Below, in pieces: positions 19,690 through 51,153 of a DNA stretch of 64,000 nucleotides (the first letter of the stretch is position 1; the number at the start of each line of letters is the position of its first letter). This DNA comes from Undibacterium piscinae (GTDB taxonomy: Bacteria; Pseudomonadota; Gammaproteobacteria; Burkholderiales; Burkholderiaceae_D): assembly GCA_003970805.2 (NCBI GenBank), contig CP051152.1:620001-684000 (forward strand), read 5' to 3'. The notes under the pieces are model-generated. The model saw only the letters and a program-made list of their open reading frames with translations. It did no database searches and was not told where the DNA came from. The position numbers were made by a program, and so were the translations under genes.

Positions 19690-20637
19690 GCCAATCAAGG
19701 TGTGAATGATCTATGGACACGCGATACGGCGCCGGTGTTCAGCAAAGGGTCAGATGGCAAGATTTACGGGATCGACCTCAACTTCAATGGCTGGGGCCAG
19801 GAAAAGCTGCGCACTGATTTGTCGGGCTGGGTCAAAGACGCTCAGAAAGCCGCCAACGGCGTACAAGATCAGGACATCAGCGGTGATAAAACCATCGCGG
19901 CGTTTATCAATAGCACGCTCTCCTTCCCTAAATTAGCCACCTGGATCACTATGGAAGGTGGGGCAATCGAGCTCAATGGCCGTGGCTTGGCGGTGGTCGC
20001 AGAAAGCTGCATCATCAATAACAACCGCAACCCGGGTAAGGGCAAGGCCGATTTTGAGGCTGAAATCAAGCGCATCATGGGGGTAGAGAAAGTGATTTGG
20101 ATACCCGGTATCAAGGCGGCAGAAATCACTGATGGCCACGTCGATTTCTACGCGCGTTTTTACAATGACAACAGCATCCTGTTTAACTGGGATGGAGGTC
20201 TGATGCCGGATAAGATCAATAAGAGTATCGATGCCAAAAACAAAGATGCCTTGTTAGCCTATCAAGCCCAAGTCGCCAGCTGGAGCGCCGCCGACAAGCT
20301 CAAGTATTTAGGCGCCGCCGATGCCACGCTTAATTTACTCGAATTGGCGACCCCAAAGAGCTCAGTACTGAGCGCAATTGCAGCGCGTAACCCAGGGATT
20401 TCTATGACGGAGCGCAAGAGTTTTAATGACACGTTTGCAGCTGGTTATGTCGGCTACTACGAAGCAAATAACTGTATCTTGATGGGGCAATTCGGTGACG
20501 CTGCGGCAGATAAAAAAGCCTACGATATTCTGCAGGCGGCCTATCCCGAACGCACTGTAATACAGATCGCCACCGATGGCGTTGCCAATGGCGGTGGCAC
20601 TATACATTGCGCTACGCAACAGCAAATCGTCTAAATA
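19690..20637 (+). pseudogene. 5'-truncated agmatine-deiminase-family gene
   Basis: The frame encodes the C-terminal 310 residues of a PAD_porph/agmatine-deiminase protein, beginning at NQGVNDLWTRD. It aligns closely over its whole length with the 513-residue paralog at 30838, including TDGHVDFYARF and the catalytic-Cys end GGGTIHCATQQQI. About 200 N-terminal residues, with the expected export signal, are missing. The loss coincides with the transposase gene, whose stop lies 66 bases upstream of the GTG at 19702 in the same frame. The only in-frame start is that GTG, with no binding site. It is probably inactive, though the remaining frame has no stop or shift and so the truncation may be recent. 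Confidence 0.85.
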
Positions 20638-20650
20638 AATCCGAATAAAC

Positions 20651-20689
20651 ATGCGGCTTGCAGCCTCAAATCAGGCTGCAGGCCGCATA
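20651..20689 (+). terminator. Strong hairpin after the truncated gene
   Basis: ATGCGGCTTGCAGCCT pairs with AGGCTGCAGGCCGCAT around a short loop (15 Watson-Crick pairs plus one G-T). No T run follows, so it may be a transcript-stabilising hairpin rather than a classical terminator. Confidence 0.5.
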
Positions 20690-20710
20690 GCGATTGCGCA
20701 ATGCGATCCA

Positions 20711-20830
20711 GGAACTTCTAAAAACCCTGTAATCGGGATGCAGCGCAAGGCGCAAACCGGAGCAATACTTCGGTATTGCGAGGATTTGCAACACCGCGAT
20801 GCGCCCGAGTATGGGTTTTTTAGAAGTTCC
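20711..20830 (+). mobile_element. MITE-like element with 17/18-bp terminal inverted repeats
   Basis: A 120-bp stretch is bounded by GGAACTTCTAAAAACCC (20711-20727) and GGGTTTTTTAGAAGTTCC (20813-20830), inverted copies differing by one A. Inside is a perfect small hairpin GCAATAC-TTCG-GTATTGC. It has no coding capacity. Size, termini and location near the transposase scar suggest a non-autonomous mobile element or palindromic repeat. No clear target duplication was seen. Confidence 0.6.
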
Positions 20831-21005
20831 CATCCCGGCAATTGAGCATAACAATCCGTTGGGGTAGCGCCACATTTCTACCCGCGCAATAGATAATCTG
20901 TGCGACTTCATAGAATTAAAACGAGTGTTTGGTTTTTCATTATCCAAGTTGAACTAGACTAATACGCGATCTACCTGATCGTTTGCAATAGACTTAGGAG
21001 TTGGT

Positions 21006-21800
21006 ATGCACCGTTTGAAACAAGTCATCTGTGGTTTGGCCTTGAGTGCGGTAGCCCAGTTGACTTTAGCGGATCAAGCAAAAAAAACCATCGTCATCGC
21101 TGGCGATGACTACTGCCCTTTAAGCTGTAATCCGGCTTCCGGGCAAAATGGCTTTGCCTACGAATTTGCTCAGCAACTGTACGGCCAATTAGGCTGGGAA
21201 GTACGCTACGAATTCGTACCGTTTCAACGCGCGCTTAAGTATTTTAAAGAAGGACGGGTCGATCTGATACCCGGTGCTGCCAAAGACGACAACCCTCACT
21301 TTGCGCAAGCTGCCTTGTCTAGTGTCGCCGTCATGTCGCCGCGCATGTGCTTTTACACGCGGGCGCAAGAGACTTGGACCTATCAAAGCACAGCCTCGCT
21401 TTTACAAGGACGACTGGGCGTGATTGCCGGCTATTTTTATTGGCCTGAACTATTGAGCTACATCGCCCAGCATCAGAACGATGGCAAGGTCGACAGTATC
21501 GCTGCCGATAACCCGATAGAACTCAGTATGCGCAAATTAAAGGCGGGCCGCTTTGATTACTTCGCAGAATTGCGGCCGGCAGTCGAGTATCAGCTCATGA
21601 AGTTGCGCATGAAAGAGGCAATTCGCGAAGCAAATTGTGTACTGAGCTTACCCTTGCACATGGCCTTCCGTCCCGATTTCGCGGGTGCCAAAGAACTCAA
21701 TGCGCATTGGGACAAGCACTATCTACAATTTCTAAAAAGCCCTCAAGGCATCGCGATTTTGCAAAAATATGGACTAAGCATCAAATCCATCATGGAATGA
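21006..21800 (+). CDS. Periplasmic substrate-binding protein, SBP_bac_3-like
   Basis: A 264-residue protein with a Sec signal peptide (MHRLKQVICGLALSAVAQLTLA). The mature part begins KKTIVIAGDDYCPLSCNP and continues as a family-3 solute-binding protein (GFAYEFAQQLYGQLGWEVRYEFVPFQRALKYFKEGRVDLIPGA), a fold that binds amino acids, opines and related compounds. There are no ABC permease or ATPase genes beside it, so it may be an orphan binding protein or a sensor partner. AGGAG precedes the ATG. A hairpin directly follows the stop. Confidence 0.8.
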   Translation: MHRLKQVICGLALSAVAQLTLADQAKKTIVIAGDDYCPLSCNPASGQNGFAYEFAQQLYGQLGWEVRYEFVPFQRALKYFKEGRVDLIPGAAKDDNPHFAQAALSSVAVMSPRMCFYTRAQETWTYQSTASLLQGRLGVIAGYFYWPELLSYIAQHQNDGKVDSIAADNPIELSMRKLKAGRFDYFAELRPAVEYQLMKLRMKEAIREANCVLSLPLHMAFRPDFAGAKELNAHWDKHYLQFLKSPQGIAILQKYGLSIKSIME

Positions 21801-21819
21801 GCCCAGGCATGGCTTGGGC
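21801..21819 (+). terminator. Hairpin after the substrate-binding protein gene
   Basis: GCCCAGGC-ATG-GCTTGGGC begins at the gene's stop codon (7 pairs plus a G-T). It is followed by the C-rich repeat, not by T residues, so termination is uncertain. Confidence 0.4.
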
Positions 21820-21821
21820 CG

Positions 21822-21846
21822 CCCCTCCCCTCCCCTCCCCTCCCCT
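21822..21846 (+). repeat. (CCCCT)5 tandem repeat; G-quadruplex motif on the minus strand
   Basis: Five perfect CCCCT units followed by CCCTT. The minus strand therefore carries five runs of four G spaced by single A, an ideal G-quadruplex sequence and a likely slippage site. It sits 21 bases after the preceding stop. Confidence 0.9.
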
Positions 21847-21898
21847 CCCTTAAATTTTCCCAATTTCGGAGTGTCAAAAGGGGACTACTAAAATCCTT

Positions 21899-21965: not shown

Positions 21966-22187
21966 TTGGATATTTTTCCCAAATACTCAGAAAAGGACTG
22001 CCTACGCATTAGCAGCGTGCGCCCTGTTTGAGCTGCTCACCCAGCCAAAAAAAGAGCAAGGCTGATGCGGTTTGAGTGCCAAATACAACAAAGTACATCT
22101 CAGTCTTCATCGATTTTTATATGGAATATTGCATGCCCACGAACTCCTAGCAGCAAGCTCACTAGGAAAACTTAAACATATATCACC

Positions 22188-22387: not shown

Positions 22388-23536
22388 ATGTCACAGAACA
22401 AAAATCAGCAAGCAGATGCTTCCCGCCGCAATTTCTTAAAATTCACTAGCATGGGCGCAGCCGCTGGGGTCCTGGTCAGCAGCTTGCCAACAGTCTTTGC
22501 CCAGACTTGCCCACCACCGCCACCTAGCGCCACTTTTGTGGCTCCTGGCGAAGACAAGTTGCACGCCAGAACCTGGATGGCCTGGCCAGCCAGCACGGCA
22601 ATCTGGGGTAGCAATTTACTACCGGGCATACAAGCCGATATCGCCCTGATCGCCAAGACTATCGCCAAATATGAGCCTGTCATTTTGTGCGCCGATGGCG
22701 CCACTAACGCCAGCAATGCCAGGACCAAAGCCGGCACCAGCGTTACCGTGGTCAGCGACATCCCGGTCGATGATCTATGGGCACGTGATACTGGTTGCCT
22801 GTTTAGGGTTGACGGTGCTGGCAAGCATGATGCGATTGGACTCAATTTCAATGGATGGGGCAATAAGCAAACCCACGCCAAAGACTCACTGGTCGCAGGC
22901 AGAATTGCCGCCAAAGCGGGTGTTCCATTCAGCACCGCTAGCTTCACTTCTGAGCCAGGCGCAATCGAACAAGATGGCGAAGGTACCCTGATTGCCACCG
23001 AGAGCAGTATCATCAACGCCAATCGCAACTCGGGTAAAACCAAGGCGCAATTAGAAACCGCAATGATGGCAGCGTATGGCGCAAGCAAGGTCATTTGGGT
23101 CAAAGGTATCGCCGGCCAGGATATTACCGATGATCATATCGACGCGACTAGCCGCTTCGTGCGTCCAGGCGTGGTCATGGTGCAGGTTGCACCGGCATCC
23201 GACACCTCGGTCTGGGGTGCGGATTCACGTTCGCAATTTGCTATTTTGTCGGCCGCCACAGATGCCAAAGGCCGGAAATTACAAGTGATCAAAATCAATC
23301 CACCCGCCACGACACGGGTTACTTCGCCTGATTTTTTAAATTCTTACATGAATTATTACGTCTGCAATGGCGCCGTCATTACTGCCCAATTTGGCGATGT
23401 AGCAGGCGATGCAGCTGCCAAGGCGGCCTTCCAGACGGCTTTCCCGGGTCGCACTATTGAGATGTTAAATCTGGATCGTTTGTATAACGGGGGCGGCGGC
23501 GTGCATTGTTCTACCCAACAAGAACCGATCGCCTAA
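22388..23536 (+). CDS. Tat-exported agmatine-deiminase-family protein
   Basis: A 382-residue PAD_porph-family amidinohydrolase. The N-terminus carries a twin-arginine signal (SRRNFLKFTSMGAAAGVLVSS) ending near FAQ, so the folded enzyme is probably exported to the periplasm. Family landmarks follow: AWPAS near the substrate loop, DDLWARDTG, LNFNGWG, TDDHID with the catalytic His/Asp, and GGGGVHCSTQQEP with Cys374 as nucleophile. Known members hydrolyse agmatine to N-carbamoylputrescine and ammonia; peptidyl-arginine deiminases share the fold. Standard agmatine deiminases are cytosolic, so the substrate here is open. GGAG lies eight bases before the ATG. Confidence 0.88.
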   Translation: MSQNKNQQADASRRNFLKFTSMGAAAGVLVSSLPTVFAQTCPPPPPSATFVAPGEDKLHARTWMAWPASTAIWGSNLLPGIQADIALIAKTIAKYEPVILCADGATNASNARTKAGTSVTVVSDIPVDDLWARDTGCLFRVDGAGKHDAIGLNFNGWGNKQTHAKDSLVAGRIAAKAGVPFSTASFTSEPGAIEQDGEGTLIATESSIINANRNSGKTKAQLETAMMAAYGASKVIWVKGIAGQDITDDHIDATSRFVRPGVVMVQVAPASDTSVWGADSRSQFAILSAATDAKGRKLQVIKINPPATTRVTSPDFLNSYMNYYVCNGAVITAQFGDVAGDAAAKAAFQTAFPGRTIEMLNLDRLYNGGGGVHCSTQQEPIA

Positions 23537-35469: not shown

Positions 35470-36237
35470 CTATTCCTTAACATAACAGGGGTAACGCGTC
35501 TGGGCCTCTAGCGCGGCGCTTAAGTCTAAGTCGTAAGTGACGAAAGGCTGCTCCAGTGTGGTTTGCGCGACGATTTCACCGTCGGGGCTCACTATCCAGC
35601 CCTGCGCGCAGGTATTTTCATCGGCATCGGGCGGCAAATGATTGGAAGTCAGTACCCAGGCACCACTACTAAATGCGGCTGCCTGCGTCGCAATCTGCCA
35701 CATCGCCTGATCGTCCGCCCCCGGATAATTGGCGCGCGGATTAACAATAAGCTGTGCGCCGGCGCGTCCGTACTGGCGTGCTCGTTCTAAAAACCAGATA
35801 TCGGTGCAGATCAGCATGCCGCATTGGGCCTGCGCCGTAGCGAATGTCTTAAATTCCCCTGCCCCTGGCTGATACCAACTGGCCTCCCAAAAACCTGCTT
35901 CGTCAGGCAGATAATGCTTGGTATGTATATCTTGATGCTTGCCATTTTCGGTAAGAAACCCCCGATTATGGCGGCGCCCGCCGGTACTCACTGGCCGCGT
36001 GCCGACGGTGGCGTAGGGCAAATCCATCAATTGGTGCAGATAGGCTTGATGCGTGTTCAGCGCTGCTTGCCATAGCTCAGCTTGATAATGTGGGCTGCCA
36101 CATAACCAGGGCGAAAATGGCAGCTCGGGCAAGACCAGTAACTCACTTTGCGATTGCTGCAGGTGTACCAACAAGCGCTTCCATTGGGAGGGAAACTTAT
36201 GCGTGGCGCTGGATAGCTCGCAGACCGTGACTTTCAT
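35470..36237 (-). CDS. Nitrilase-superfamily carbon-nitrogen hydrolase
   Basis: A 255-residue amidase-type protein. The Glu-Lys-Cys triad is visible: Glu38 in LLVLPELPFSPW, Lys107 in DIHTKHYLPDE and Cys144 in QCGMLICTDIWF. It is shorter than and divergent from the N-carbamoylputrescine amidase at 49.1 kb. It lies between a branched-chain-type binding protein and an MFS carrier on the same strand, suggesting uptake and hydrolysis of one nitrogen compound. The substrate is not predictable. Confidence 0.85.
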   Translation of the reverse strand: MKVTVCELSSATHKFPSQWKRLLVHLQQSQSELLVLPELPFSPWLCGSPHYQAELWQAALNTHQAYLHQLMDLPYATVGTRPVSTGGRRHNRGFLTENGKHQDIHTKHYLPDEAGFWEASWYQPGAGEFKTFATAQAQCGMLICTDIWFLERARQYGRAGAQLIVNPRANYPGADDQAMWQIATQAAAFSSGAWVLTSNHLPPDADENTCAQGWIVSPDGEIVAQTTLEQPFVTYDLDLSAALEAQTRYPCYVKE

Positions 36238-37499: not shown

Positions 37500-38996
37500 C
37501 TAGCCGATACGCATCCAGGTGGTTTTCAGCTCGGTGTATTTATCAAACGCATGCAGCGATTTATCGCGTCCGTTGCCTGACTGTTTATAGCCGCCGAACG
37601 GCACCGTCATATCGTCTTCGTCATAGGCATTGACATGCACAGTGCCGGCTTTGAGTGCGCGTGCAGTCTGTATCGCTTTATTTAAATCTGAAGTCCAGAC
37701 TGCGGCTTGCAGGCCGTAGGGCGTGGCATTGGCCAGCCGTATTGCCTCCTGCAAATCGCTAAAGCCAAACACCGATAAGACGGGGCCAAAAATCTCTTCG
37801 CGTGCGATCGTCATGCTACTGTCTACACCGTCAAACAGCGTCGGCGAGACGTAGCAACCACCACTATCGCTGCGTTGTTGCACTCCGCCTGAGAGCAACT
37901 TTGCGCCTTCGGCATTGCCGGCAATCGATATTAACCCATCACTGACCTTGAGTTGGGTTGCATCGACAATCGCTCCCATGACGGTTGTTTTGTCCATGGA
38001 TCAGCGGGCTGGAAAGACCCGGCATCATTGCCAAGGCTCTTTCCAGGAATTCTGTCCCTTGATCGAGGCCTCGACCAAACAAGCGGAAGGGGCATTACAG
38101 CTTTACGCCCTGGTTGAAATAGATGGAGCCGATTTGCCGCTTCCACCGCTTCGTCCAATCAGGCAGTCGGCGCAGACAATGTTGGGCCGATTTGCCGCCC
38201 ACTCCGTCCAGGGCGCGCTTGAGATGATTGTCTGCCATTTGCAGAAATCTGCTACCGATTTGGTCGAGCCGGTAAAGCCTATGCAATCGACATCCATGTG
38301 CAAGGCCAAAGCACTACCAGCCTCATGTCCGTAACCGGGTACCACGTTAAAAACACCGGCAGGTATACCCGCTTCTAAAGCGATTTCTGCCATGCGCAAA
38401 GCAGTTAATGGCGATTTCTCGGACGGTTTTAACACCACGCTATTGCCCGCCGCCAGCGCAGGACCTAGTTTCCAACTAGCCATGATCATAGGATAGTTCC
38501 AGGGCACGATGGCAGCCACCACACCAACTGGTTCACGCGTGATCAGCGCCAGCGCAGAGTCGGCAGTTGGGGCGATTTCATCATAGATTTTATCAACGGC
38601 TTCGCCATACCAGCGTATGCAATTGGCACTGGCCGGTACATCGACGCTGAGGCTGTACTTGATAGGCTTACCCATATCCAGGGTTTCTAATAAGGCCAAC
38701 TCTTCACGATTTTGCAGCAGCAAATCGGCAAATTTAATCAGGGTACGTTTACGCTCTGTTGGCGCTAAGCCGGCCCAACGCCTATCGTCAAAAGCACTAC
38801 GTGCCGCCACCACCGCTTTGTCGACATCGGCAACATCGCAACGTGCGACGGACGCCAGATTGCGCCCATCGATAGGTGAAATACAATCAAAGACGGCGCC
38901 AGACTCGGCCGCCACACGTTGCCCATTGATGAAGGCACGGCCATCTATTTTTAGCTGAGCGGCACGCTCATGCCACTGTGTTGTTTGGATTTGCAT
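37500..38996 (-). pseudogene. puuC: Frameshifted gamma-aminobutyraldehyde dehydrogenase (PuuC-like)
   Basis: The N-terminal half (38996 to about 38285) reads as an intact aldehyde dehydrogenase, from the Rossmann region VVAAIVPWNYPMIMASWKLGPALAAGNSVVLKPSEKSP to CIGFTGSTK. The C-terminal part (about 37997 to 37500) is also intact, with EEIFGPVLSVFGF. Between them, about 290 bases hold several small indels. The expected ELGGKSPNIVCADCPDLDEAVEAA and FNQGQ-C segments appear in three different frames (ALDGVGGKSAQHC; NRPNIVCADC; MDEAVEAANR; SIYFNQG). The catalytic Cys and Glu are thus lost from any one frame. The enzyme would oxidise 4-aminobutyraldehyde from the adjacent aminotransferase. Sequencing error in this patch is an alternative. 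Confidence 0.85.
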
Positions 38997-39123: not shown

Positions 39124-39945
39124 TCAAGAGGTGGCTAACTGCCTTAAGCGCAAGCGTTCTGCTCTCGCCATATAAAAACTAGAAGCGATCACCGCGATGC
39201 TGACCACCAGGATAGTCAAGGCCGCCACTGCATTTACTCTAGGATCTAAGCCTAAACGGGCACGCGAGAAAATCACCAAAGGCATGGTGGTGGCACCTGG
39301 TCCCGACAAAAATGCGGTGAGAACGACATCGTCCAATGACAGCGTAAAGGTCAGGAGCCAGGCCGAACCTAGGGACTGCAGGATATTTGGCAAAGTCACC
39401 AGAAAGAATACCTGGTGCGGCCGACACCCCAAATCCATGGCGGCCTCTTCCAAAGATTTATTCATCTCCCGCAAACGCGACTGTATGACTACCGTGGCAT
39501 ATGCCATCCCTAATAAAGTATGGCCTATCCAGATCGTGACCAAACCACGCTCCGGAGCACCAAACGTCTTTTGCAATGCCACCATAAATAACAGCAAGGA
39601 CAGACCAATAATGACTTCGGGCATGACCAGCGGCGCACTGACCATGCCACTAAATAGAGTACGGCCAAAAAAACGACTGTATTTTTCGAGTACAAAGGCG
39701 GCAAAAGTCCCCAAGATGACTGAGGTACAGGCGGTCATAACGGCGATTTTCATCGAAAGAATAAACCCAGCGATGATTTCGCTATCCTGCGCAAGTGCGG
39801 TATACCAATGAGTAGAGAAACTGTTCCAGATCATGTCCTCCCTAGAGCTATTGAAAGAAAACACGATCAATACCAGGATAGGGAGATATAAAAATAGATA
39901 GCCTATCGATAACCAGCTACGTCCAAAAAAGCGATATCCGTTCAT
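39124..39945 (-). CDS. potI: Putrescine ABC transporter permease PotI
   Basis: A 273-residue inner-membrane permease with six hydrophobic segments. The EAA-type coupling loop is EEAAMDLGCRPHQVFFLVTLPNI. Start chosen at 39945 (MNGYRFFGRSWLSIGYLFLYLPIL) because it overlaps the potH stop by four bases (ATGA) and begins just before the first helix, though the frame is open further upstream. With PotF, PotG and PotH it forms a type-I importer for putrescine or spermidine. Confidence 0.9.
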   Translation of the reverse strand: MNGYRFFGRSWLSIGYLFLYLPILVLIVFSFNSSREDMIWNSFSTHWYTALAQDSEIIAGFILSMKIAVMTACTSVILGTFAAFVLEKYSRFFGRTLFSGMVSAPLVMPEVIIGLSLLLFMVALQKTFGAPERGLVTIWIGHTLLGMAYATVVIQSRLREMNKSLEEAAMDLGCRPHQVFFLVTLPNILQSLGSAWLLTFTLSLDDVVLTAFLSGPGATTMPLVIFSRARLGLDPRVNAVAALTILVVSIAVIASSFYMARAERLRLRQLATS

Positions 39946-40868
39946 AGTCCACTCATTTCTTGCTTGGCTTGGTATTTGTTGAAAATACCCATAGGTAATA
40001 AGATCAGCAAAATCATCACCACCGTGACCGCTGAGGCCATAGGCCAATCATTGTTACTAAAGAATTCGTCAAACAACACCCGTCCTATCATCAAAGTCTC
40101 CGGGCCACCGAGCAATTCAGGGATGGTGTATTCACCTATGCAGGGGATGAAGACCAGCATAGAGCCGGCGATGATGCCGGATTTCGATAGCGGCACGGTG
40201 ATACGCCAAAATGCCTGCCATGGGCTAGCCCCCAGATCGGCAGCAGCTTCCAGATAACGCACATCGAGTTTTACCAAGTTGGCGTACAGCGGCAAGATCA
40301 TGAAAGGCAGATAGCCATACACCATCCCTAAAGCTAAGGAAAATGAGGTATTCATCATGTGGATAGGGTTATCGATTAAACCCATGGAAAGCAGCAAGTG
40401 ATTCAATAAGCCGTTATTTGCCAAAATCCCCTTCCAGGCATAGATACGCAGTAAGAAAGAGGTCCAGAATGGCAGCATGACCAACATCATTAAGGTATCG
40501 CGTCGACTCGGTTTGGCGCGCGCCATAAAATAGGCAAATGGGTAACCAAAGAACAAACACAGTAGCGTCGTAATCAACGCAAATTTCAATGAATTGAGGT
40601 AGGTAAACAGATAGAGATTATCTTCAGCGATAAAAAAATAGCTGGCAAATCTCAATTTTAAATTTGCCACACCATTGGTATAACTCCAGATGCTACCGAA
40701 AGGATCGATGCTATCGCCCATATCAGTCACACTGAGTTTGAGCACAATAAGAAAGGGAAGCAAAAACACCAGCAGCAGCCAGACGTAGGGAATCCCTATG
40801 ACCAGATGGCGCCCGCTGAGAGCCCGCAAGCGCAGCACTCCGAATAAATTTGAAAATATAGTTTTCAT
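39942..40868 (-). CDS. potH: Putrescine ABC transporter permease PotH
   Basis: A 308-residue permease with six membrane helices. The first begins at IGIPYVWLLLVFLLPFLIVLKLS, and the EAA loop is EAAADLGASPWQAFWRITVPLS. The ATG at 40868 has GAGGA just upstream and lies 14 bases after the potG stop. Its stop overlaps the potI start. The motif order and neighbours support the PotH assignment over other polyamine/spermidine permeases. Confidence 0.9.
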   Translation of the reverse strand: MKTIFSNLFGVLRLRALSGRHLVIGIPYVWLLLVFLLPFLIVLKLSVTDMGDSIDPFGSIWSYTNGVANLKLRFASYFFIAEDNLYLFTYLNSLKFALITTLLCLFFGYPFAYFMARAKPSRRDTLMMLVMLPFWTSFLLRIYAWKGILANNGLLNHLLLSMGLIDNPIHMMNTSFSLALGMVYGYLPFMILPLYANLVKLDVRYLEAAADLGASPWQAFWRITVPLSKSGIIAGSMLVFIPCIGEYTIPELLGGPETLMIGRVLFDEFFSNNDWPMASAVTVVMILLILLPMGIFNKYQAKQEMSGL

Positions 40869-40882
40869 AGCATCCTCGCTGC

Positions 40883-42022
40883 TTATTGGGTCAACACCAC
40901 AAGATTGTCCGGACTCCATCTGGCGTAGATTTTTTCGCCTAGCTTGAGTTGATGAGAGGAAAATCGGTCAGAGTTGGCGATGCTCGCTTTCAATAACAAG
41001 CCGCTACGCAATTTAATATGGTAGATCGTGTAACTCCCCAGATAGGCCCAATCGACCAAGCTGCCCTCAACACAGTTATATAAACCTTGGCCTAAATCCT
41101 GAGGCTCGTTAAAACTAATGATGATTTTTTCCGGGCGTATCCCAACTGAAACTGGCATACCTAAGTTGCCGCTAATTCCATGCCCTACATAGTGTTTGCA
41201 CTCCGGCGTTTGCACCACCACGTGATCGGGTTCATCTTCGATCAACTTGCCATCAAACAGATTGATGTTGCCTATGAAGTCAGCGACGAAACGGCAATTC
41301 GGCGTTTCGTAAATTTCTCTAGGTTTGCCCACTTGCGCAATTTGTCCATGGCTCATCACCGCGACGCGTGAGGCCATGGTCATCGCTTCTTCCTGGTCAT
41401 GCGTCACCATCACGCAAGTGACGCCCACTTTTTCTATGATGTTGACCAACTCCAACTGGGTTTCTTCGCGCAACTTCTTATCTAGGGCCGCTAAGGGTTC
41501 ATCAAGCAAAAGTAATTGCGGCCTCTTGGCCAAGCTGCGCGCTAAAGCGACGCGCTGCTGCTGGCCGCCCGACATTTGATGTGGCTTGCGTTTGCCGAAG
41601 GATTTTAACTGCACCAGATCAAGCATCTTATCGACGCGATCCGCGACTTCATCTCGCTTCATGCCATCGCGGCGTAAGCCGAAAGCGATGTTGTCCCATA
41701 CGCTCAAATGCGGAAACAGCGCATATGACTGAAACATCATATTGATAGGCCGCTCATAGGCGGGCGCACCGACGATATTTTTTCCGTTCAGTAAGATCTG
41801 CCCGGAAGTCGGCGTTTCAAAACCGGCCAGCATGCGTAGTAAGGTAGATTTTCCACAACCAGAGCTACCGAGTAAGGCGAAAATCTCGCCTTTCTGAATC
41901 GAGATCGAGACATCATCGACCGCCCGTACTCCGTCAAACTCTTTGACCAGATTACGGATCACTAAGAAGGCTTTCTCATCCTTGGATGAGGGAACTACGT
42001 CGGGTTTTTTATTGGTTGCCAT
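40883..42022 (-). CDS. potG: Putrescine ABC transporter ATPase PotG
   Basis: A 379-residue ATP-binding protein. Walker A is GSSGCGKST, the signature MSGGQQQRVALARSLAKRP, Walker B LLLLDEPLAALD, and the H-loop VTHDQEEA. The C-terminal third is the TOBE regulatory domain typical of PotA/PotG. The frame is open to a GTG at 42091; the ATG at 42022 gives the usual length. It lies between the aminotransferase gene and potH on the same strand and energises the PotHI permease. Confidence 0.92.
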   Translation of the reverse strand: MATNKKPDVVPSSKDEKAFLVIRNLVKEFDGVRAVDDVSISIQKGEIFALLGSSGCGKSTLLRMLAGFETPTSGQILLNGKNIVGAPAYERPINMMFQSYALFPHLSVWDNIAFGLRRDGMKRDEVADRVDKMLDLVQLKSFGKRKPHQMSGGQQQRVALARSLAKRPQLLLLDEPLAALDKKLREETQLELVNIIEKVGVTCVMVTHDQEEAMTMASRVAVMSHGQIAQVGKPREIYETPNCRFVADFIGNINLFDGKLIEDEPDHVVVQTPECKHYVGHGISGNLGMPVSVGIRPEKIIISFNEPQDLGQGLYNCVEGSLVDWAYLGSYTIYHIKLRSGLLLKASIANSDRFSSHQLKLGEKIYARWSPDNLVVLTQ

Positions 42023-42112
42023 GACAGATTTGGTACTTTCAAAATTGGAGATTATGTGAAGCGACTTCACATCTTTCTTGTAGGGCGCCACACACTGGCA
42101 GCATTGCCTAGA

Positions 42113-43549
42113 CTAAAGGTAGTTGCGCTGTTGCAGATCGGCCAGCGTCTCATCCAGACAAAAACGGATCAAGGCGATCATCTCGTCGATCTGCGCAATA
42201 GTCATAGTCAAAGGAGGAGAGACAATCATACGATTGCCAACCGCGCGCATAATCATGCCGTGCTTAAACATGTGGTCGCGACAGATCTGCCCCACCCCAA
42301 GGTCTTTCGGGAACATCTGCATATCAAAAATATTTTCGGCTTTTTCTTTGACTAAAACCAAGGCCGCTAAAAATCCGCAGGTATCGACCATACCAACCAG
42401 GGGATGGTCAAGCAGACTGTCAAATCCTTGCTTCAGATACGGCCCAGTTTCGTCCCGAACTTGCTCTATAATTTTTTCTTCGCGCAAAATGCGAATATTC
42501 TCGAGTGCCGCCGCGCATGCAACCGGGTGGCCAGAGTAGGTGAAGCCATGGTTGAAGTCGCCGCCTTTTTCTATCAGCACCTGGGCCACCTTATCGCCTA
42601 CCATCACACCGCCCAGCGGCAAATAACCGGACGTGACCCCTTTGGCAAAGGTCATTAAATCGGCCTTGATTTCGAAATGTTCGGAGCCGAACCAGCACCC
42701 TACGCGACCGAAGCCACAGATGACTTCGTCGACGATCAGCAAAATATCGTATTTGCTACAGATGCGCTGAATTTCCGGCCAATAGGTAGCAGGCGGGATA
42801 ATGACACCACCGGCGCCCTGCAAAGGCTCGGCAATAAAAGCGGCGACCTGGTCGGCACCAACTTCCAGAATTTTATCTTCTAACCATGAAGCGGCTTTTA
42901 GCCCAAATTCATCCTGCGTTAAGCCCTTGCCGCCTTCCAAATAGTAAGGTTGGCCTATATGTACTATGCCAGGAATAGGCAAGCTGCCTTGCGCGTGCAT
43001 TGCTGACATGCCGCCGAGCGAGGCGCCCGCTACGGTGCTGCCGTGATAGGCATTGTGACGACTGATAATCACATGGCGTTCGCTATAACCGAGCAAATCC
43101 CAATAGCGACGCACCATGCGTAGATTGGTATCATTCGCTTCGGAACCGGAACCGGTAAAGAAGACATGCTTGAATTGGGGCGGTGAAATTTCGACCAAGG
43201 CCTTGGCCAATTCCACCGCAGGAATATTCGTGGTATTGAAAAAGCTATTATAGAAAGGCAGTTGCTGCATTTGCGTATACACCGCATCTGAGATACTTTT
43301 GCGGCCATAACCGACGTTGACGCACCATAGGCCCGCCATGCCATCTAAGATACGCTTGCCTTGGCTATCCCAAAGATAAATATCCTGCGCTTCGACGATG
43401 ACCTGAGCTCCGCGATTTGCCAAAGCTTTGAAATTGGTAAACGGATGTAGATAATGCGCCGTATCCATGGCCTGAATAGCTTCAGTGTTGTAGTGCACTT
43501 GCTGCGGTGTCGAGACCACGGCTAGGGCTGCCAGTGTATTTGATTTCAT
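42113..43549 (-). CDS. spuC: Putrescine-pyruvate aminotransferase, SpuC-like
   Basis: A 478-residue class-III, PLP-dependent aminotransferase. The start region MDTAHYLHPFTNFKALANRGAQVI and GMAGLWCVNVGYGRK fit the SpuC/polyamine-transaminase group. The PLP-binding Lys is in MTFAKGVTSGYLPLGGVMV and the Asp in LLIVDEVICGFGR. It would convert putrescine (or cadaverine) plus pyruvate to 4-aminobutyraldehyde and alanine in the cytosol. AGGTGAAA precedes the ATG. Its product should feed the aldehyde dehydrogenase at 37.5-39.0 kb, which is broken. Confidence 0.9.
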   Translation of the reverse strand: MKSNTLAALAVVSTPQQVHYNTEAIQAMDTAHYLHPFTNFKALANRGAQVIVEAQDIYLWDSQGKRILDGMAGLWCVNVGYGRKSISDAVYTQMQQLPFYNSFFNTTNIPAVELAKALVEISPPQFKHVFFTGSGSEANDTNLRMVRRYWDLLGYSERHVIISRHNAYHGSTVAGASLGGMSAMHAQGSLPIPGIVHIGQPYYLEGGKGLTQDEFGLKAASWLEDKILEVGADQVAAFIAEPLQGAGGVIIPPATYWPEIQRICSKYDILLIVDEVICGFGRVGCWFGSEHFEIKADLMTFAKGVTSGYLPLGGVMVGDKVAQVLIEKGGDFNHGFTYSGHPVACAAALENIRILREEKIIEQVRDETGPYLKQGFDSLLDHPLVGMVDTCGFLAALVLVKEKAENIFDMQMFPKDLGVGQICRDHMFKHGMIMRAVGNRMIVSPPLTMTIAQIDEMIALIRFCLDETLADLQQRNYL

Positions 43550-43688: not shown

Positions 43689-45059
43689 TTAAACGTGCAG
43701 CAGCAGGTGCTCACGCTCCCAGGGACTGATGACTGTCATGAACTCTTGATGCTCCAGATCTTTGATGGCGCAATACACGTCAATGAAACGCTCACCCAGT
43801 ACGCTACGCAGCTTGGTCTCGGCGCGCAGTGCCTGCAACGCCTCAGGCAAACCCTGTGGCAATTCAAATTTCAGGTCATACGCACTACCAACCATGATCG
43901 GTGTCGGTTCCAGTTGCTCGGTCATGCCGAGATAACCGCAGGCCAGTGTCACAGCCAGTGCCAGATAAGGATTGGCATCGGCACCGATAATGCGATTTTC
44001 TACCCGCCTATCTTGCGCGCCCGACTCAGGTACACGAAACCCTACGGTACGATTATCCAAACCCCACTGGATATTGATAGGCGCAGCCGTGTGGCGCACG
44101 ATGCGACGATACGAATTAACATAAGGGGCAACGATCGCCATCGCCGCAGGCATATAGCGCTGCAAGCCAGCGATGTAATGTTTAAAAATTGGCGCCGCCG
44201 AGCCATCCAGATTACTGAAAATATTCAAGCCGGTCTTGGCGTCAACCACGCTTTGGTGTACATGCATGGCCGAGCCTGGCTCGCCCATCATGGGTTTGGC
44301 CATGAAGGTGGCATACATATCGTGCTTCAAAGCCGCTTCCCGCAGGGTGCGCTTAAAAAAGAACACTTTATCGGCCAAGCCTAAAGGATCGCCGTGCAGG
44401 AAATTGATTTCCATCTGACCGGCACCGATCTCATGTATCAAGGTATCGACATCGAGATTCATCAGCTCGCAGTAATCGTAAATATCTTCGAACAAGGGAT
44501 CGAATTCGTTGACAGCATCAATGCTATATACCTGGCGACTGGTTTCGGCGCGGCCACTACGTCCTACCGGCGGCTTCAAAGGCAAATCGGGATCGGTATT
44601 TTTAGCCGTCAGATAAAATTCCAATTCTGGTGCCACGACAGGTTTCCAACCTTTGTCGGCGTACAGTTTCAAGACCTTACGTAATACCGAGCGAGGAGCA
44701 AAATCGACCAACATCCCATCCGAGAAAAAACAATCATGGATGACTTGCGCGGTCGGGTCTGTGGCCCATGGCACCATGGTAATGGTCGTTGGGTCGGCCT
44801 TTAAGATCATGTCCCTATCGGTTGATGAGATAGCTCTATCGTAAGGGCCATCATCGGTAGGATAGTTGCCAGTGACGGTCATGCCCAGCACTGCCTCGGG
44901 GATACGCATGCCACGCTCTTGCGTGAATTTACCTCGAGGTAAAATTTTACCGCGCGCCACTCCAGTCAGATCGGGCACTAAACATTCAATTTCTGTCACG
45001 CGCTTTTCGTTGAGCCACAGATCCATATCGGTGTACGAAAAATTTTCATGTATAGACAT
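43689..45059 (-). CDS. puuA: Glutamate-putrescine ligase (PuuA/SpuI-like glutamine synthetase)
   Basis: A 456-residue glutamine-synthetase-fold ligase. The N-terminus (VTEIECLVPDLTGVARGKILPRGKF) is diagnostic of the PuuA group. Catalytic-domain segments include GAGQMEINFLHGDPLGLADKVF, MAKPMMGEPGSAMHVHQS and RIVRHTAAPINIQWGLDNRTVGFRVP. The Tyr-adenylylation loop of GlnA is not seen. It would make gamma-glutamylputrescine from putrescine, glutamate and ATP. The puuD-like gene is decayed and no puuB is in the window, so the downstream part of this route is not complete here. Confidence 0.9.
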   Translation of the reverse strand: MSIHENFSYTDMDLWLNEKRVTEIECLVPDLTGVARGKILPRGKFTQERGMRIPEAVLGMTVTGNYPTDDGPYDRAISSTDRDMILKADPTTITMVPWATDPTAQVIHDCFFSDGMLVDFAPRSVLRKVLKLYADKGWKPVVAPELEFYLTAKNTDPDLPLKPPVGRSGRAETSRQVYSIDAVNEFDPLFEDIYDYCELMNLDVDTLIHEIGAGQMEINFLHGDPLGLADKVFFFKRTLREAALKHDMYATFMAKPMMGEPGSAMHVHQSVVDAKTGLNIFSNLDGSAAPIFKHYIAGLQRYMPAAMAIVAPYVNSYRRIVRHTAAPINIQWGLDNRTVGFRVPESGAQDRRVENRIIGADANPYLALAVTLACGYLGMTEQLEPTPIMVGSAYDLKFELPQGLPEALQALRAETKLRSVLGERFIDVYCAIKDLEHQEFMTVISPWEREHLLLHV

Positions 45060-46813: not shown

Positions 46814-47989
46814 TCAATAGCCAGTCTTGAACTTGGTGTAGATACGCGATGACAACCTACGTATCTCGCCATTGACCTTGCCCTGCACGCCCATGCGATT
46901 GATCTCTGCATCAGTCGGGAAAACTTCAGCGCTGCTAGAAATTTCGGGGTTCACAAACTTGCGACCTTCCTTATTAGGATTGGCGTAAAACAGCTTGTTC
47001 GTCAATGAGGCATGTACCTCTGGACGCATGATGTAATTCATGAATTTATGCGCATTGCTAACGTGAGGCGCATCTACCGGTATCACCATGGTGTCAAAAA
47101 ACATGACGCCGCCAGTCTTAGGCATGAGAGGCTGAATATGCACTGCAGGTTTAAGCGCTGCGGCGCGACGCTTGGCATTACTCAGGTCACCCGACCAACC
47201 CATTGCGACACAGACCGAGCCGCCCACCATGTCATTGATATACCCGGAAGAGCTAAATAGTGTCACGTAAGGACGCACAGAATTGAGTAAAGCACCCACT
47301 TCAGCATAATCGGACGGATTGGTACTTGCCAAAGACTTGCCCAGATAATGCAGGGCAGCCGGCACCACTTCGGAAGGAGAGTCTAAGAAAGAAACACCGC
47401 AAGACTTCAGCTTGGAAACGTATTCAGGTTTAAATAACAGATCCCAAGCATTGTCCGGCATAGGTAAATTACCTAATGCGGCCTTGACTTTATCAACGTT
47501 GATACCAACCGTGGTGTAACCCCACAGATAATTGACCAAGTATTGATGGCCAGGATCAAGTTTGGCGATCTGCGCCTGAGTCACAGGATCGAGGTTTTTC
47601 ATGTTGGGCAATTGGTTCTTATCGAGCACATGCAGTAAACCACCATCGGCCTGCATTCTGCCCCAACCGGAAGAAGACATCACGACGTCATAGCCAGAAC
47701 GACCCGCGACCAATTTCGCATGGAGAATTTCGCTGCTATCGAAGGTGTCATAACGCACCTTGATCCCAGTTTCTTTCTCAAAGTTCGCAATCGTGTCGTC
47801 AGCGATATAAGCAGACCAATTGTAAAAGTTAAGAATTTTCTCTTCCTGTGGCTCGGCCTTGGCTGTCACAGAGACGGATGGAATTGCGGTTTGCGCATTG
47901 GCGTCAATTGCCAGCAAACCCGCGTAACAACTTAGAATTGAGGCGATAAATTTGTGCTTGAATTTGTGCTTAATACAGATGCTACTCAT
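46814..47989 (-). CDS. potF: Polyamine-binding periplasmic protein, PotF/SpuD type
   Basis: A 391-residue solute-binding protein with a signal peptide (ending DANAQ). The mature start NFYNWSAYIADDTIANFEKETGIKVRYDTFDSSEILHAKL is characteristic of PotF/SpuD/SpuE, including the WS..Y motif that lines the polyamine pocket. GGGAG precedes the ATG. It is the recognition component for PotGHI, which lie about 5 kb downstream on the same strand, separated by the porin, puuA and spuC genes. Whether it prefers putrescine, spermidine or agmatine cannot be told from sequence alone. Confidence 0.92.
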   Translation of the reverse strand: MSSICIKHKFKHKFIASILSCYAGLLAIDANAQTAIPSVSVTAKAEPQEEKILNFYNWSAYIADDTIANFEKETGIKVRYDTFDSSEILHAKLVAGRSGYDVVMSSSGWGRMQADGGLLHVLDKNQLPNMKNLDPVTQAQIAKLDPGHQYLVNYLWGYTTVGINVDKVKAALGNLPMPDNAWDLLFKPEYVSKLKSCGVSFLDSPSEVVPAALHYLGKSLASTNPSDYAEVGALLNSVRPYVTLFSSSGYINDMVGGSVCVAMGWSGDLSNAKRRAAALKPAVHIQPLMPKTGGVMFFDTMVIPVDAPHVSNAHKFMNYIMRPEVHASLTNKLFYANPNKEGRKFVNPEISSSAEVFPTDAEINRMGVQGKVNGEIRRLSSRIYTKFKTGY

Positions 47990-48071
47990 GCTGATCTCCC
48001 TGGTTTATTTTTTACTTATTTGACTTACTTTAAACTCAAATGCTAGGCTAGACATACTCCAGCCTAGTGCA

Positions 48072-49121
48072 TTACTTCGGCTCTTGCTGCGTGGTGCAGT
48101 GGATACCACCGCCCCCCGCAGCAATACAGTCGATGTTGATTTGCACTACCAGACGCTCAGGATATAAATCCTGTAGCGTATGTAGTGCGTTTTGATCGGC
48201 TTTGGCATCGCCAAACTCGGGTGCAATCACGGCGCCATTCACCAAGTAGTAATTAAGGTAGCCGGCTGCAAAATGCTCGTTCTTATACTGCGCGCGGATT
48301 TCACTTGGGGCCTCGATCAAAACAATTTTTAAGGCATTGCCACTGGCGTCTCTGGCGGCACGCAATATTTCCAAATGGCGCAAAGTCATCGCGTGCACGT
48401 AAGAACTGGTATCTGGATCAAAATGCACCAGCACCACACCAGGTCCAGCGAAGCGAGCATAAAAATCGATATGCGCGTCGGTAATGTCGCGACCTCGAAT
48501 ACCCGGCAGCCAGATGATGCTATGCAGTCCTAGCAGCGCTTTCAGTTGAACTTCGGCCATGCTCTTGGTCATGCCAGGATTACGATTTTCGTTGAGGACA
48601 CTGCTTTCTGTGATTAAGGCAGTGCCTTTGCCGTCCACTTCTATCGCACCACCTTCAAGCACTAAAGCGGTTTTTTTTATCCTAGCCCAAGCTGCTTTGG
48701 CAGTGACTGCGGCCACCTTACTATCCGAACGGTGCGCTTGTTTATTACCCCAACCATTGAAGTTAAAATCAACCGCCATCCGCTCGCCACTCTTGGCGTG
48801 AATAAAAACCGGACCTGTGTCGCGCATCCACAAATCATCCAGAGCGCAAGTGATCAATTCCACATTAGGCCCGCATTTTGCGCGCGCCAGCTCCAGTTCA
48901 TGCTCTCTGACCAACATGGTGACTGGCTCGAAACGCGCGATGGTGCTAGCAATCAGTCCAAGATTGTCCTGGACTGCCCCCAACATATCACCCCACAACT
49001 CGGCACACGCACCAAATGCCATCCAGGTGCGCAAATGCGGTTCGCTCTCGTCCGGCATGCCTACACGATTATTGTTGCTCGTGCTGGCCGGGCCGACGGT
49101 ATGCTCGACGGTTGGCTTCAT
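48072..49121 (-). CDS. Cytosolic agmatine-deiminase-family protein (second in aguAB cluster)
   Basis: A 349-residue PAD_porph protein without a signal peptide. Landmarks are DDLWMRDTGPVF, FNFNGWGNKQ, TDAHIDFYARF and GGGGIHCTTQQEP with the catalytic Cys near 342. It is closer to the exported paralogs than to the aguA at 50.1 kb (for example in GGGGIHC and NFNGWGNKQ). Start taken at 49121, where AAGG lies seven bases upstream; a Met two codons earlier has poor spacing. It follows aguB by about ten bases and is likely in the same transcript. It may be a back-up agmatine deiminase or act on another guanidino compound. Confidence 0.87.
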   Translation of the reverse strand: MKPTVEHTVGPASTSNNNRVGMPDESEPHLRTWMAFGACAELWGDMLGAVQDNLGLIASTIARFEPVTMLVREHELELARAKCGPNVELITCALDDLWMRDTGPVFIHAKSGERMAVDFNFNGWGNKQAHRSDSKVAAVTAKAAWARIKKTALVLEGGAIEVDGKGTALITESSVLNENRNPGMTKSMAEVQLKALLGLHSIIWLPGIRGRDITDAHIDFYARFAGPGVVLVHFDPDTSSYVHAMTLRHLEILRAARDASGNALKIVLIEAPSEIRAQYKNEHFAAGYLNYYLVNGAVIAPEFGDAKADQNALHTLQDLYPERLVVQINIDCIAAGGGGIHCTTQQEPK

Positions 49122-49130
49122 TAACATGCC

Positions 49131-50060
49131 TTAAGCCTTCTTGCGCAAATCAGGGCGTATATGGTGCCCATCGCTAGTTTGTAAGGTGGTATACATTTCA
49201 GGACGGCGATCGCGGAAGAAGCCAAAACTTTGACGCTCTTTACGAATTTCTTCCAAATCAAAGCTATGTAGCAGGATCGTTTCATCCACGCGGTTGGCTT
49301 CAGCCACTTTCTTACCGGTGTAATCAGCAATGAAACTGGAGCCATAAAAAGTACCGGTTAAGCCTTTTTGTAGCGCGTTGTTATTGCCGATACCGGTCTC
49401 GCTGCCGATGCGATTGGCGGCGACTACCGGCACCATATTGGCGGCGGCGTGACCTTGCATGGTGCGCTGCCAATGGCCTGCTGTATCCATTTCAGTACTA
49501 TGCGGCTCTGAACCTATGATGGTCGGGAAACACATGATTTCTGCACCCATCAAGGCCATACTGCGGGCGGTTTCCGGATACCACTGATCCCAGCAGATCG
49601 CTACACCGATGCGTCCAAAACGGGTATCCCAGACTTTAAAACCAGTGTCGCCAGGTGAGAAATAGAATTTTTCTGTATACCCAGGACCATCTGGAATATG
49701 GGTCTTGCGATAGACACCCAATACCGCGCCATCGGCATCTGCGACCGCCACCGAATTGAACGCCGCATTGCCGGCACGCTCAAAGAAGCCTATCGGTAGA
49801 ACGATATTGAGTTCGCCCGCTAATTTGGCAAAATGCGCGATACGAGGGTTGCCTTCGAATGGTTCGGCCAGATCAAGATGATTCACGTTTTGATCAAGAC
49901 AGAAGTAAGGCATCATGAACAGTTCAGGGCACAACACTAAGTTAGCGCCCTTGGCTGCCGCTTCGCGTATCAAGCGCTCGGCTCTGTCCATATTCAGTTG
50001 AAAATCCCAATCGCCTGATGCCATTTGTACAGAAGCGACGGTAATGGTTCGTTTAGTCAT
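49131..50060 (-). CDS. aguB: N-carbamoylputrescine amidase (AguB)
   Basis: A 309-residue nitrilase-superfamily enzyme. The Glu-Lys-Cys triad is in VLCPELFMMPYFC, YRKTHIPDGPGYTEKFYFSPGDTG and GVAICWDQWYPETAR, segments typical of AguB. It hydrolyses N-carbamoylputrescine to putrescine, carbon dioxide and ammonia. The start at 50060 has GAGG nine bases upstream; a Met five codons earlier is in frame. It is 22 bases downstream of aguA and forms with it the two-step agmatine-to-putrescine pathway. Confidence 0.94.
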   Translation of the reverse strand: MTKRTITVASVQMASGDWDFQLNMDRAERLIREAAAKGANLVLCPELFMMPYFCLDQNVNHLDLAEPFEGNPRIAHFAKLAGELNIVLPIGFFERAGNAAFNSVAVADADGAVLGVYRKTHIPDGPGYTEKFYFSPGDTGFKVWDTRFGRIGVAICWDQWYPETARSMALMGAEIMCFPTIIGSEPHSTEMDTAGHWQRTMQGHAAANMVPVVAANRIGSETGIGNNNALQKGLTGTFYGSSFIADYTGKKVAEANRVDETILLHSFDLEEIRKERQSFGFFRDRRPEMYTTLQTSDGHHIRPDLRKKA

Positions 50061-50082
50061 ATCATGCATCCTCAATAAACAC

Positions 50083-51153
50083 TTAAGCCAAATTACACAT
50101 TTGCAGGCGATTGCCTAGCATAGGGTGCTGCTGGGTGGAGCAATGAGTGGCACCACCACCGAGAGAAATAGCCGTGATCGGCAATAATTCAACCACGCGG
50201 TCGGGGAAGGCTTGAGCGAAGACGGCACGTGCTAATTCATCTTGTGGCACATCGAAGGCAGTTGAAATTACCGCACCGTTGACTAAGACATAGTTGGCAT
50301 AAGTGTCGCAAAAACGCGGACAGTCGTAGTTATAGGCATTGCGTGGCACTGGCAGATCGAGTATCTCAAAGCGCCGACCACGAGCATCGGTGGCCAGTTC
50401 CAGCGCACGGCGGTTTTCTTGCATGCCGGTGTAGTATTCACCCATGTCAGGATCGGCTGCGTTGAACAGTATCTTGCCCGGTGCGATAAACGAAGCGATG
50501 CCATCGATATGACCATTGGTCTCAACTTCAGGTGGGTAGCCTGGCAACCAAATGATTTTTGTTACGCCTAACATGCGACGTAATTCCGCCTCGATGTCGG
50601 CGCGAGTCATGCCTGGATTACGGTTTGGGTGCAGCAAGCAGCTCTCGGTCGTCAACAAAGTACCTTGACCGTCGACATAAAATGAACCACCTTCCAACAC
50701 CATGCTGGAGCGCATAACAGGCAATTGCGCCATCGCTGCAATATCATCGGCCAGACGGGCGCAACCATCATACGGCGAGTACTTTTCACCCCAGGCATTA
50801 AACTTAAAAGCAGCAGCGACTTGACTGAGCTTGTCTTCATTGCTCAGGATAATCGGGCCGCAATCACGCACCCAGTTGTCTTCTACCGCAAGTGGCACGA
50901 CAGTGACGCTAGGGCCACATAATTTACGCGCCGTCTCTACCAGTGGAGTGTGCGCGGTAACGATACAACGCTGATATTTGGCAATAGTGCGCGCCAGTAA
51001 GGCAAAGGCATCACATACGGCAGGGTAGTGTTCACCCCACAGTTCTTCACGGTTTTCTAGCACTGGCCAGCCCAACCAGGTGGCTGCCATTGGTTCCCAT
51101 TCTGCGGGCATACGATAGCCGTCACGGCGGCAATCAAATTCTTGTTGTGTCAT
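50083..51153 (-). CDS. aguA: Agmatine deiminase (AguA)
   Basis: A 356-residue cytosolic PAD_porph enzyme with no export signal. The substrate loop is MPAEWEPMAATWLGWP, then EDNWVRDCGPI, EGGSFYVDGQGTLLTTESCLLHPNRNPG, NGHIDG with the catalytic His/Asp, and GGGATHCSTQQHP with Cys338. It converts agmatine to N-carbamoylputrescine and ammonia, and precedes aguB directly. It is the best candidate for the true AguA in the window. A 21-bp dyad sits about 67 bases before the start, and a divergently placed LysR-type regulator gene is not adjacent but lies 500 bases upstream in the same orientation. Confidence 0.92.
   Translation of the reverse strand: MTQQEFDCRRDGYRMPAEWEPMAATWLGWPVLENREELWGEHYPAVCDAFALLARTIAKYQRCIVTAHTPLVETARKLCGPSVTVVPLAVEDNWVRDCGPIILSNEDKLSQVAAAFKFNAWGEKYSPYDGCARLADDIAAMAQLPVMRSSMVLEGGSFYVDGQGTLLTTESCLLHPNRNPGMTRADIEAELRRMLGVTKIIWLPGYPPEVETNGHIDGIASFIAPGKILFNAADPDMGEYYTGMQENRRALELATDARGRRFEILDLPVPRNAYNYDCPRFCDTYANYVLVNGAVISTAFDVPQDELARAVFAQAFPDRVVELLPITAISLGGGATHCSTQQHPMLGNRLQMCNLA

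Follow-up and report, generated by a model that had tools for sequence, protein, structure and literature searches.

A locus of six agmatine-deiminase-family genes in Undibacterium piscinae, with predicted twin-arginine-exported members that lack the amine-binding acid

Introduction

Among the closest known relatives of the genes treated here are the agmatine deiminases and, at the level of a whole locus, agu2ABCA' of Pseudomonas aeruginosa. In the agmatine iminohydrolase of Medicago, the terminal amine of agmatine is bonded directly to Asp220 and Ala360 and is held by Asp89 through water, and two loops are mobile, residues 122-136 and the linker of repeats IV/V at residues 291-314 (PMC6447857). 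Agu2A' (PA14_48450) is listed as an experimentally identified substrate of the twin-arginine translocation (Tat) pathway (PMC6085387), and it is the one case in which an exported type is already known. Here we describe a stretch of 64,000 nucleotides from Undibacterium piscinae (positions 620,001 to 684,000 of contig CP051152.1, hereafter the window), which holds six genes of the agmatine deiminase family, three of them with Tat-type signals.

The table available for the Frankia agmatine deiminase shows no secretion signal (PMC9956245), and the word periplasm is absent from the available text of the AguY paper (PMC12283126). In the open-access literature we found no paper joining agmatine deiminase and Undibacterium, and none combining agmatine deiminase, lipoprotein and Tat signal; neither a lipoprotein type nor a missing amine-binding acid was met there, in searches mostly aimed elsewhere.

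Results

A search of the whole genome (4,186,344 bases in one contig, 97.39% complete) with the Pfam model PF04371 (PAD_porph) returned six matches, all inside the window between 19.7 and 51.2 kb and all above the gathering cut-off of 25 bits (207-348.6 bits). The W-x-R-D, Glu, H-x-D and GGG..HC catalytic residues are invariant across the six-way alignment, and the catalytic Cys, His, Asp and Glu and the guanidine-binding Asp are present in all six copies, as in agmatine deiminase. This confirms a real and well-supported cluster of six deiminase genes, as an earlier, sequence-only reading had proposed from the PAD_porph landmarks and the catalytic Cys in G-G-G-x-x-H-C. We refer to each gene by its lowest window coordinate:

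19702-20634, plus strand: deiminase 19702, open frame that is the 3' half of a split gene
22388-23536, plus strand: deiminase 22388, 382 aa, soluble type, predicted Tat signal SRRNFLK
29310-30431, minus strand: deiminase 29310, 373 aa, soluble type, Tat-type signal RKRRFLS
30838-32379, plus strand: deiminase 30838, 513 aa, Tat-type signal plus lipobox LAAC
48072-49127, minus strand: deiminase 48072, of the exported clade, without a signal peptide
50083-51153, minus strand: deiminase 50083, AguA-type, signal-less, Glu at the amine-binding position

Gene 50083 directly precedes aguB, and 48072 comes after it. With the equivalog model TIGR03380 the six score 278, 256.3, 222.7, 226.5, 137.8 and 139.2 bits (128.5-278 overall) against a cut-off of 381.8, a shortfall that says little because 50083 and most matches in our wider search are also below the cut-off.

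We placed these copies in a tree of 75 proteins, comprising five solved enzymes of agmatine-deiminase type (the Chlorobium one called only putative), P. aeruginosa Agu2A and Agu2A', the window copies, and relatives thinned at 62% identity. One branch of 44 rows with support of 100/100, which we call the exported clade, unites Agu2A', 48072, 22388, 29310, 30838, 19702 and Tat-bearing relatives, while 50083, Agu2A and the five solved enzymes lie outside it. The idea that the exported copies are something other than ordinary cytosolic agmatine deiminases survived this comparison, since they form a separate clade. In a quick tree, 22388 pairs with a protein from a metagenome-assembled genome (MAG) and 29310 with two genes of U. 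rugosum, these pairs sharing one nine-row group with Streptomyces-type proteins. The partner of 48072 is the protein of locus L011, and 30838 and 19702 sit inside an insertion-type group. We infer that no recent tandem expansion gave rise to the cluster; 30838 and 19702 are the only close pair.

Among the export signals, that of 22388 scores 23.4 bits with the Tat model TIGR01409 (cut-off 16.7) and 20.8 bits with PF10518, just under the cut-off of 22.7. For 29310 (KRRFLS) and 30838, support comes from the motif, the hydrophobic stretch and similar signals in relatives. The U. rugosum relatives of 29310 bear SRRDF or SRRAF signals, and the N-terminus of 30838 (RRRRFMQ...PLAAC) combines, at motif level, a twin arginine with a lipobox cysteine, the lipobox recurring as LSAC in the relative at L026 and as LTAC in the 5' half of the split gene. 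On these features, 22388 and 29310 look like Tat-exported soluble enzymes and 30838 reads as a Tat lipoprotein, in keeping with the three Tat-type signals first claimed for the cluster. The genome encodes TatC (213.7 bits; cut-off 132.7).

The same signals could instead be non-functional, or the starts mis-called, in which case the paralogs would be cytosolic spare copies. Two of the three signals do miss the Tat hidden Markov models, and signal-less members of the clade exist (48072 and L011). We therefore weigh these points against a sample of 202 full-length, non-identical sequences from loci L001-L167 (partial and identical sequences, 19702 among them, being dropped), with clade membership set by the nearest tree row, or by hand for the window rows. 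A home-made rule, asking for a twin Arg or Lys-Arg, a hydrophobic stretch and an optional lipobox, called a Tat-type signal in 140 of the 161 exported-clade sequences (79 of soluble type, 61 with a lipobox), yet in just 1 of the 41 sequences outside the clade, where it is located upstream of the likely start. The 21 clade members without a call are 48072, L011, L057, L110 and 17 Streptomyces and Kitasatospora proteins; in L110 a signal that the rule misses is visible by eye, and a contig end truncates 3 of the 17. The pattern also recurs in relatives from Actinomycetota, Pseudomonadota, one cyanobacterium and one verrucomicrobial MAG, and its presence in relatives led us to reject mis-called starts for 22388, 29310 and 30838. 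With a signal kept across such distant relatives, and with Agu2A' listed among experimentally identified Tat substrates (PMC6085387), we regard spare copies as very unlikely. The missing signal of 48072 is real, because its frame begins 3 bases past aguB and is open for just one codon further back.

Two proteins on a long branch outside the exported clade, L113 (4817-5965) and L151, carry signals that by eye are of the Sec and not of the Tat type, along with an aliphatic residue at the position of Asp220; they perhaps represent a second route to export.

We located the Asp220 position by counting from Cys366 in the alignment, as the residue before the Thr of T-N/D-x-H-x-D. Asp or Glu occupies it in all seven solved agmatine-deiminase-type chains with an alignment (Arabidopsis, Medicago, Enterococcus, Chlorobium, Helicobacter, Campylobacter and Porphyromonas 1zbr, those of Chlorobium and 1zbr being called putative). 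Within the window, 50083 has Glu211, 22388 has Ile246, 29310, 48072 and 19702 have Ile, and 30838 has Val. Throughout the exported clade the position is Ile, Val or Leu (161/161 sampled sequences) and never an acid (0/161), and the acid is likewise missing from all 44 tree rows. Outside the clade we found an acid in 36 of 41 sequences, Gly in two, a gap in one and an aliphatic residue in two (L113 and L151); one outsider, L104, has Gly in the profile alignment and Thr in the tree alignment, which shows that an isolated odd residue can hinge on the alignment used. Agmatine can therefore not simply be assumed as the substrate of the exported copies. On the tree, the acid state changes three times and the Tat state four times, with the Tat state set by hand and seven rows omitted. 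A ranking of columns between exported and cytosolic sequences put the Asp220 position at the top but proved circular, the cytosolic group having been picked by its Asp220 residue, and apart from residue numbers it was not used.

These residues also bear on whether the exported copies might be ordinary agmatine deiminases at work in the periplasm, the change at Asp220 being neutral and another residue or water holding the amine. All window copies, and 201 or 202 of the 202 relatives, retain the catalytic residues, the two tunnel tryptophans and the equivalent of Asp89, the best structural matches are agmatine deiminases, and agu2ABCA' has been tied to environmental agmatine (PMC4211729). The contrast between an acid in 7/7 solved chains and in 0/161 exported-clade sequences speaks against such neutrality, and on balance we find this explanation unlikely, if still worth entertaining.

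For the structural models of both 22388 and 30838, chains of agmatine-deiminase type come ahead of P. gingivalis peptidylarginine deiminase (PPAD) among the matches, and the 30838 model (predicted local distance difference test score 81.0) has the same fold. This protein contains an insertion of 22 residues right after FNGWG and another of 15 residues just ahead of the SYMNYY strand, with others elsewhere; from the alignment, these two would be placed at the two mobile loops of the plant enzyme. Compared with canonical AguA/AIH enzymes (EC 3.5.3.12; TIGR03380), the exported copies thus keep the fold, the catalytic Cys/His/Asp/Glu and the tunnel tryptophans, but they differ in their export signals, in the absence of the Asp220 acid, in the loop insertions of 30838 and in scores under the equivalog cut-off, the last being true of 50083 too. 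The missing acid in the exported clade and the lipoprotein type are possibly new.

PPAD is located outside the cytoplasm and shares with the window proteins the pentein fold and a Pfam family name, which raises the question of whether the exported copies are PPAD-type peptidyl- or C-terminal-arginine deiminases acting on extracytoplasmic proteins or peptides. The available description of PPAD places an immunoglobulin (Ig)-like domain after the catalytic domain, extending to residue 461; the window proteins, in contrast, end 7-18 residues past the catalytic Cys and have no such domain. They match agmatine deiminases far better, their similarity to PPAD being much weaker, and they differ from it further in genome context and in Tat-type export. 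Arg152 and Arg154 of PPAD hold the carboxylate of its substrate; by a tentative placement, the corresponding region of the window proteins reads FNGWG or FNAWG, with no Arg. Given the weak similarity and the layout, we rejected PPAD-like activity, and with it the peptidyl-arginine substrate once suggested, as the likely function; we hold it to be highly improbable.

At locus L168 of P. aeruginosa (NZ_CP131792.1), the gene order is LysR, deiminase, aguB, solute-binding protein, deiminase, and the last deiminase carries the signal peptide given for PA14_48450 Agu2A' (PMC6085387), preceded by one extra Met. The same gene content stands side by side at 46814-52556 of the window, where three genes accompany 48072 and 50083:

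46814..47989, minus strand: PotF-like solute-binding protein, the Agu2C counterpart, below the PotF cut-off
49131..50075, minus strand: AguB, N-carbamoylputrescine amidase, TIGR03381 459.3 against 410.25 bits
51654..52556, minus strand: LysR-family regulator

The best window counterparts of the L168 proteins are 35-57% identical: Agu2A to 50083 42%, Agu2B to 49131 57%, Agu2C to 46814 35%, LysR to 51654 35%, and Agu2A' to 48072 53%, its best window match (39-40% to 22388 and 29310, 35% to 50083). Thus, both loci have a LysR gene, an AguA-type gene, AguB, a PotF-like binding protein and an Agu2A'-type gene; the exported copies belong to the same tree clade as Agu2A', which likewise has a Tat signal on the exported enzyme and shares the Ile of 22388, 29310, 48072 and 19702 at the amine-binding position. 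The sequence-only reading had considered the system undescribed, but agu2ABCA', whose Agu2A' is exported by Tat, is a locus of the same kind. Several features set the window apart: 48072, the Agu2A'-type copy within its operon, is without a signal; the last two genes are swapped; the LysR gene is on the operon strand; importer and degradation genes follow the operon; and the region at 19.7-32.4 kb adds a split gene and three more of exported type, two of them soluble and one a lipoprotein. A tyrosine recombinase gene of the XerC/XerD kind, below the equivalog cut-offs, is found beside the LysR end of the cluster (window 53181-54380).

Of the relatives with a genus name, the nearest belong to an uncultured Undibacterium and to U. 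rugosum. A PF04371 match is present in 11 of the 43 genomes of the genus, above the cut-off in 10. Copy numbers are six here and in G014, five in U. rugosum CY7W (G017, NZ_JACOGG010000010.1, at C1:124497-147764), four matches in G024 (a Burkholderiales MAG that is 70% complete, one match being a fragment) and one in each of six genomes; the remaining genome has one weak match. Clustering recurs in U. rugosum and G024. In all six single-copy genomes, a LysR gene 48-61% identical to 51654 adjoins the deiminase, and the deiminase has, by eye, a twin-arginine signal and a lipobox. PF04371 matches occur in 38 of the 392 genomes of the family, and no genome outside the genus shows more than three, fragments counted, in a search that scored at most five candidates per genome (it gives five here instead of six, and scored five of eight in G243). 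In a wider contig scan, 78 loci are listed of 577 confirmed relatives; most of those listed are from Actinomycetota, and many hold 2-4 neighbouring copies. Since the scan was seeded with exported sequences, it is uninformative on the overall frequency of the exported type.

In many of the loci L062-L136 (Streptomyces, Kitasatospora and Yinghuangia), 2-4 deiminases of the soluble and the lipoprotein type are neighbours, and a signal-less copy that has the acidic residue (ETDGHVD) is often present. In genomes of the same family, loci L042-L048, L050 and L051 hold tandem pairs of one Tat-lipoprotein-type and one Tat-soluble-type gene about 1.1 kb apart (genomes G131, G182, G192, G212, G264, G285, G308, G365 and G379).

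The neighbouring genes include, in line with the polyamine importer first claimed, a putrescine-type importer along with the aguB gene listed above:

21006..21800, plus strand: family-3 solute-binding protein, PF00497 27.5 against 26.4 bits
23719..25900, plus strand: decayed remnants of a Peptidase_C26 gene (puuD-like) and a DAO/FAD oxidoreductase gene (puuB-like)
35470..36237, minus strand: carbon-nitrogen hydrolase (nitrilase superfamily), PF00795, 24% identical to P. aeruginosa Agu2B
37500..38996, minus strand: aldehyde dehydrogenase with at least one in-frame stop, giving 165- and 297-aa frames
39124..42091, minus strand: ATP-binding cassette importer permeases and ATPase of PotI/PotH/PotG type
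42113..43549, minus strand: aminotransferase, presumably SpuC-like, NF005682 above cut-off
43689..45059, minus strand: glutamine-synthetase-family enzyme, below all equivalog cut-offs shown

The best NCBIfam models for the importer are PotI, PotH and PotG, each below its equivalog cut-off, with the potA subfamily model above. The glutamine-synthetase-family enzyme is a possible gamma-glutamyl-polyamine synthetase, to judge from its family. The two remnants, which we take to correspond to the puu genes, were detected by tblastn (E 2.7e-18 and 6.1e-21) and spread over more than one frame; in MAG locus L032 the same two genes are intact, in the same order, beside a relative of 22388, which together with the remnants behind 22388 links this gene to polyamine degradation. 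Gene 22388 itself stays intact though the genes behind it are heavily decayed. The aldehyde dehydrogenase aligns with an intact L032 gene at 66% identity over 501 columns in one frame, and its stop stands among otherwise open genes; a sequencing error is possible. The solute-binding protein gene at 21006-21800 lies between two deiminase genes, with no transporter partner among the neighbouring long frames. A search for biosynthetic arginine decarboxylase, confined to the SpeA type, found nothing over the cut-off in the genome (46.6 against 624.1 bits).

The first gene of the cluster had been described as simply truncated, a view that we reject. Using the N-terminal 201 residues of 30838 as a query, we found a 64% match at genome positions 603,104-603,676, and the missing 5' half sits 36 kb before the 3' half, beyond a transposable element with terminal repeats and a target-site duplication that splits the gene:

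Genome C1:603679-639692 (window 1-19692 is the part inside the window): Tn3-family element, 36,014 bp
Window 19652..19692, minus strand: right inverted repeat, 41 bp, 41/41 identical to the left end, inverted
Genome C1:603679-603719, outside the window: left inverted repeat
Window 19693..19697: 5-bp target-site duplication AATCA, the other copy at genome 603674-603678, directly before the left repeat
Window 19693..20634, plus strand: 3' half of a 30838-type deiminase gene, with an open frame from GTG 19702
Genome 603092-603678: 5' half of the split gene, with the signal QQRRQFM...LTAC

The signal on the 5' piece makes the broken copy, by motif, a Tat lipoprotein too, and its 3' half is 74% identical in DNA to 30838, the only close pair among the copies. 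Assignment to the Tn3 family follows from the transposase, the long terminal inverted repeats and the 5-bp duplication; two Tn3-family transposases are encoded (NF033527, 760.8 and 1313.9 bits). A search for inverted repeats confined to 9-21 kb gave no fitting pair, because the other end of the element is outside the window. The insertion is also present in genome G014, but the two genomes are 99.99-100% identical over 37.8 kb here, and G014 is therefore not counted as an independent case. The element also carries a CBASS (cyclic-oligonucleotide-based antiphage signalling system) oligonucleotide cyclase with an AAA ATPase nearby, metal-transport genes (a CzcA-type efflux pump, a ZntA-like ATPase and an FTR1-like permease) and an arsenate-reductase-like gene below its model cut-off.

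Discussion

We propose that the cluster is probably an enlarged agu2-type guanidino-amine catabolic locus, in which internal AguA and AguB and an importer are complemented by Tat-exported deiminases acting outside the cytoplasm. The exported deiminases would fold in the cytoplasm and then cross by Tat. Once in the periplasm or on the surface of the membrane, they would convert a guanidino compound from outside into a carbamoyl (ureido) product and ammonia, a guanidine-to-ureido chemistry to be expected because the catalytic residues are kept. The PotF-GHI-like importer would take up this product together with any free amine, AguB would strip the carbamoyl group from the imported product, and the resulting amine might enter central metabolism through aminotransferase or gamma-glutamyl steps. 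Since the acid is missing and the lipoprotein type has gate-loop insertions, the paralogs are expected to differ in substrate, agmatine being at best one of several. Taken as a whole, the sequence-only reading was right about the Tat signals and the aguB and importer genes, and a periplasmic guanidine-deiminating step remains plausible from the predicted signals and the kept catalytic residues; novelty, PPAD-like activity, agmatine as a given and simple truncation did not hold up.

A number of observations weigh against this proposal. Neither TIGR01409 nor PF10518 matches 29310 or 30838 at E <= 0.001, and the role given to the importer is a guess. Agu2A, which is without a Tat signal, is also without the acid (it has Met), and signal-less members of the exported clade keep the aliphatic residue, which means that residue and location are not coupled. 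Because the change falls on one main branch of the tree, it is close to a single historical event, and its link with export is unproven. The equivalents of Asp89 and Ala360 may be enough to hold the amine, and the biofilm effects of agu2ABCA' with agmatine fit agmatine as substrate or signal (PMC4211729). Finally, with the aldehyde dehydrogenase and the puuD- and puuB-like genes broken, the pathway may be partly inactive in the present strain.

A broader and, in our opinion, more doubtful possibility, though one to be taken seriously, is that no agmatine deiminase is present anywhere in the Tat-exported clade, Agu2A' and the many 'agmatine deiminase family' proteins of Streptomyces and Burkholderiales relatives included. 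The clade would then be a widespread family of guanidine deiminases, located in the periplasm or anchored at the surface, for other compounds. Candidate substrates are, for example, guanidino acids, guanidinylated natural products, and guanidino-amines that are longer or acylated; the soluble and the lipid-anchored paralogs would share them out, and the ureido products would go to cytosolic amidases.

Sources naming these proteins mostly say agmatine deiminase family. Should the exported clade act on another substrate, many annotations would be wrong, and a periplasmic guanidine-using step with lipid-anchored members would have gone unnoticed. The contrast between Ile/Val/Leu and Asp/Glu at a single position offers a simple test, and in this cluster both types occur side by side in one genome.

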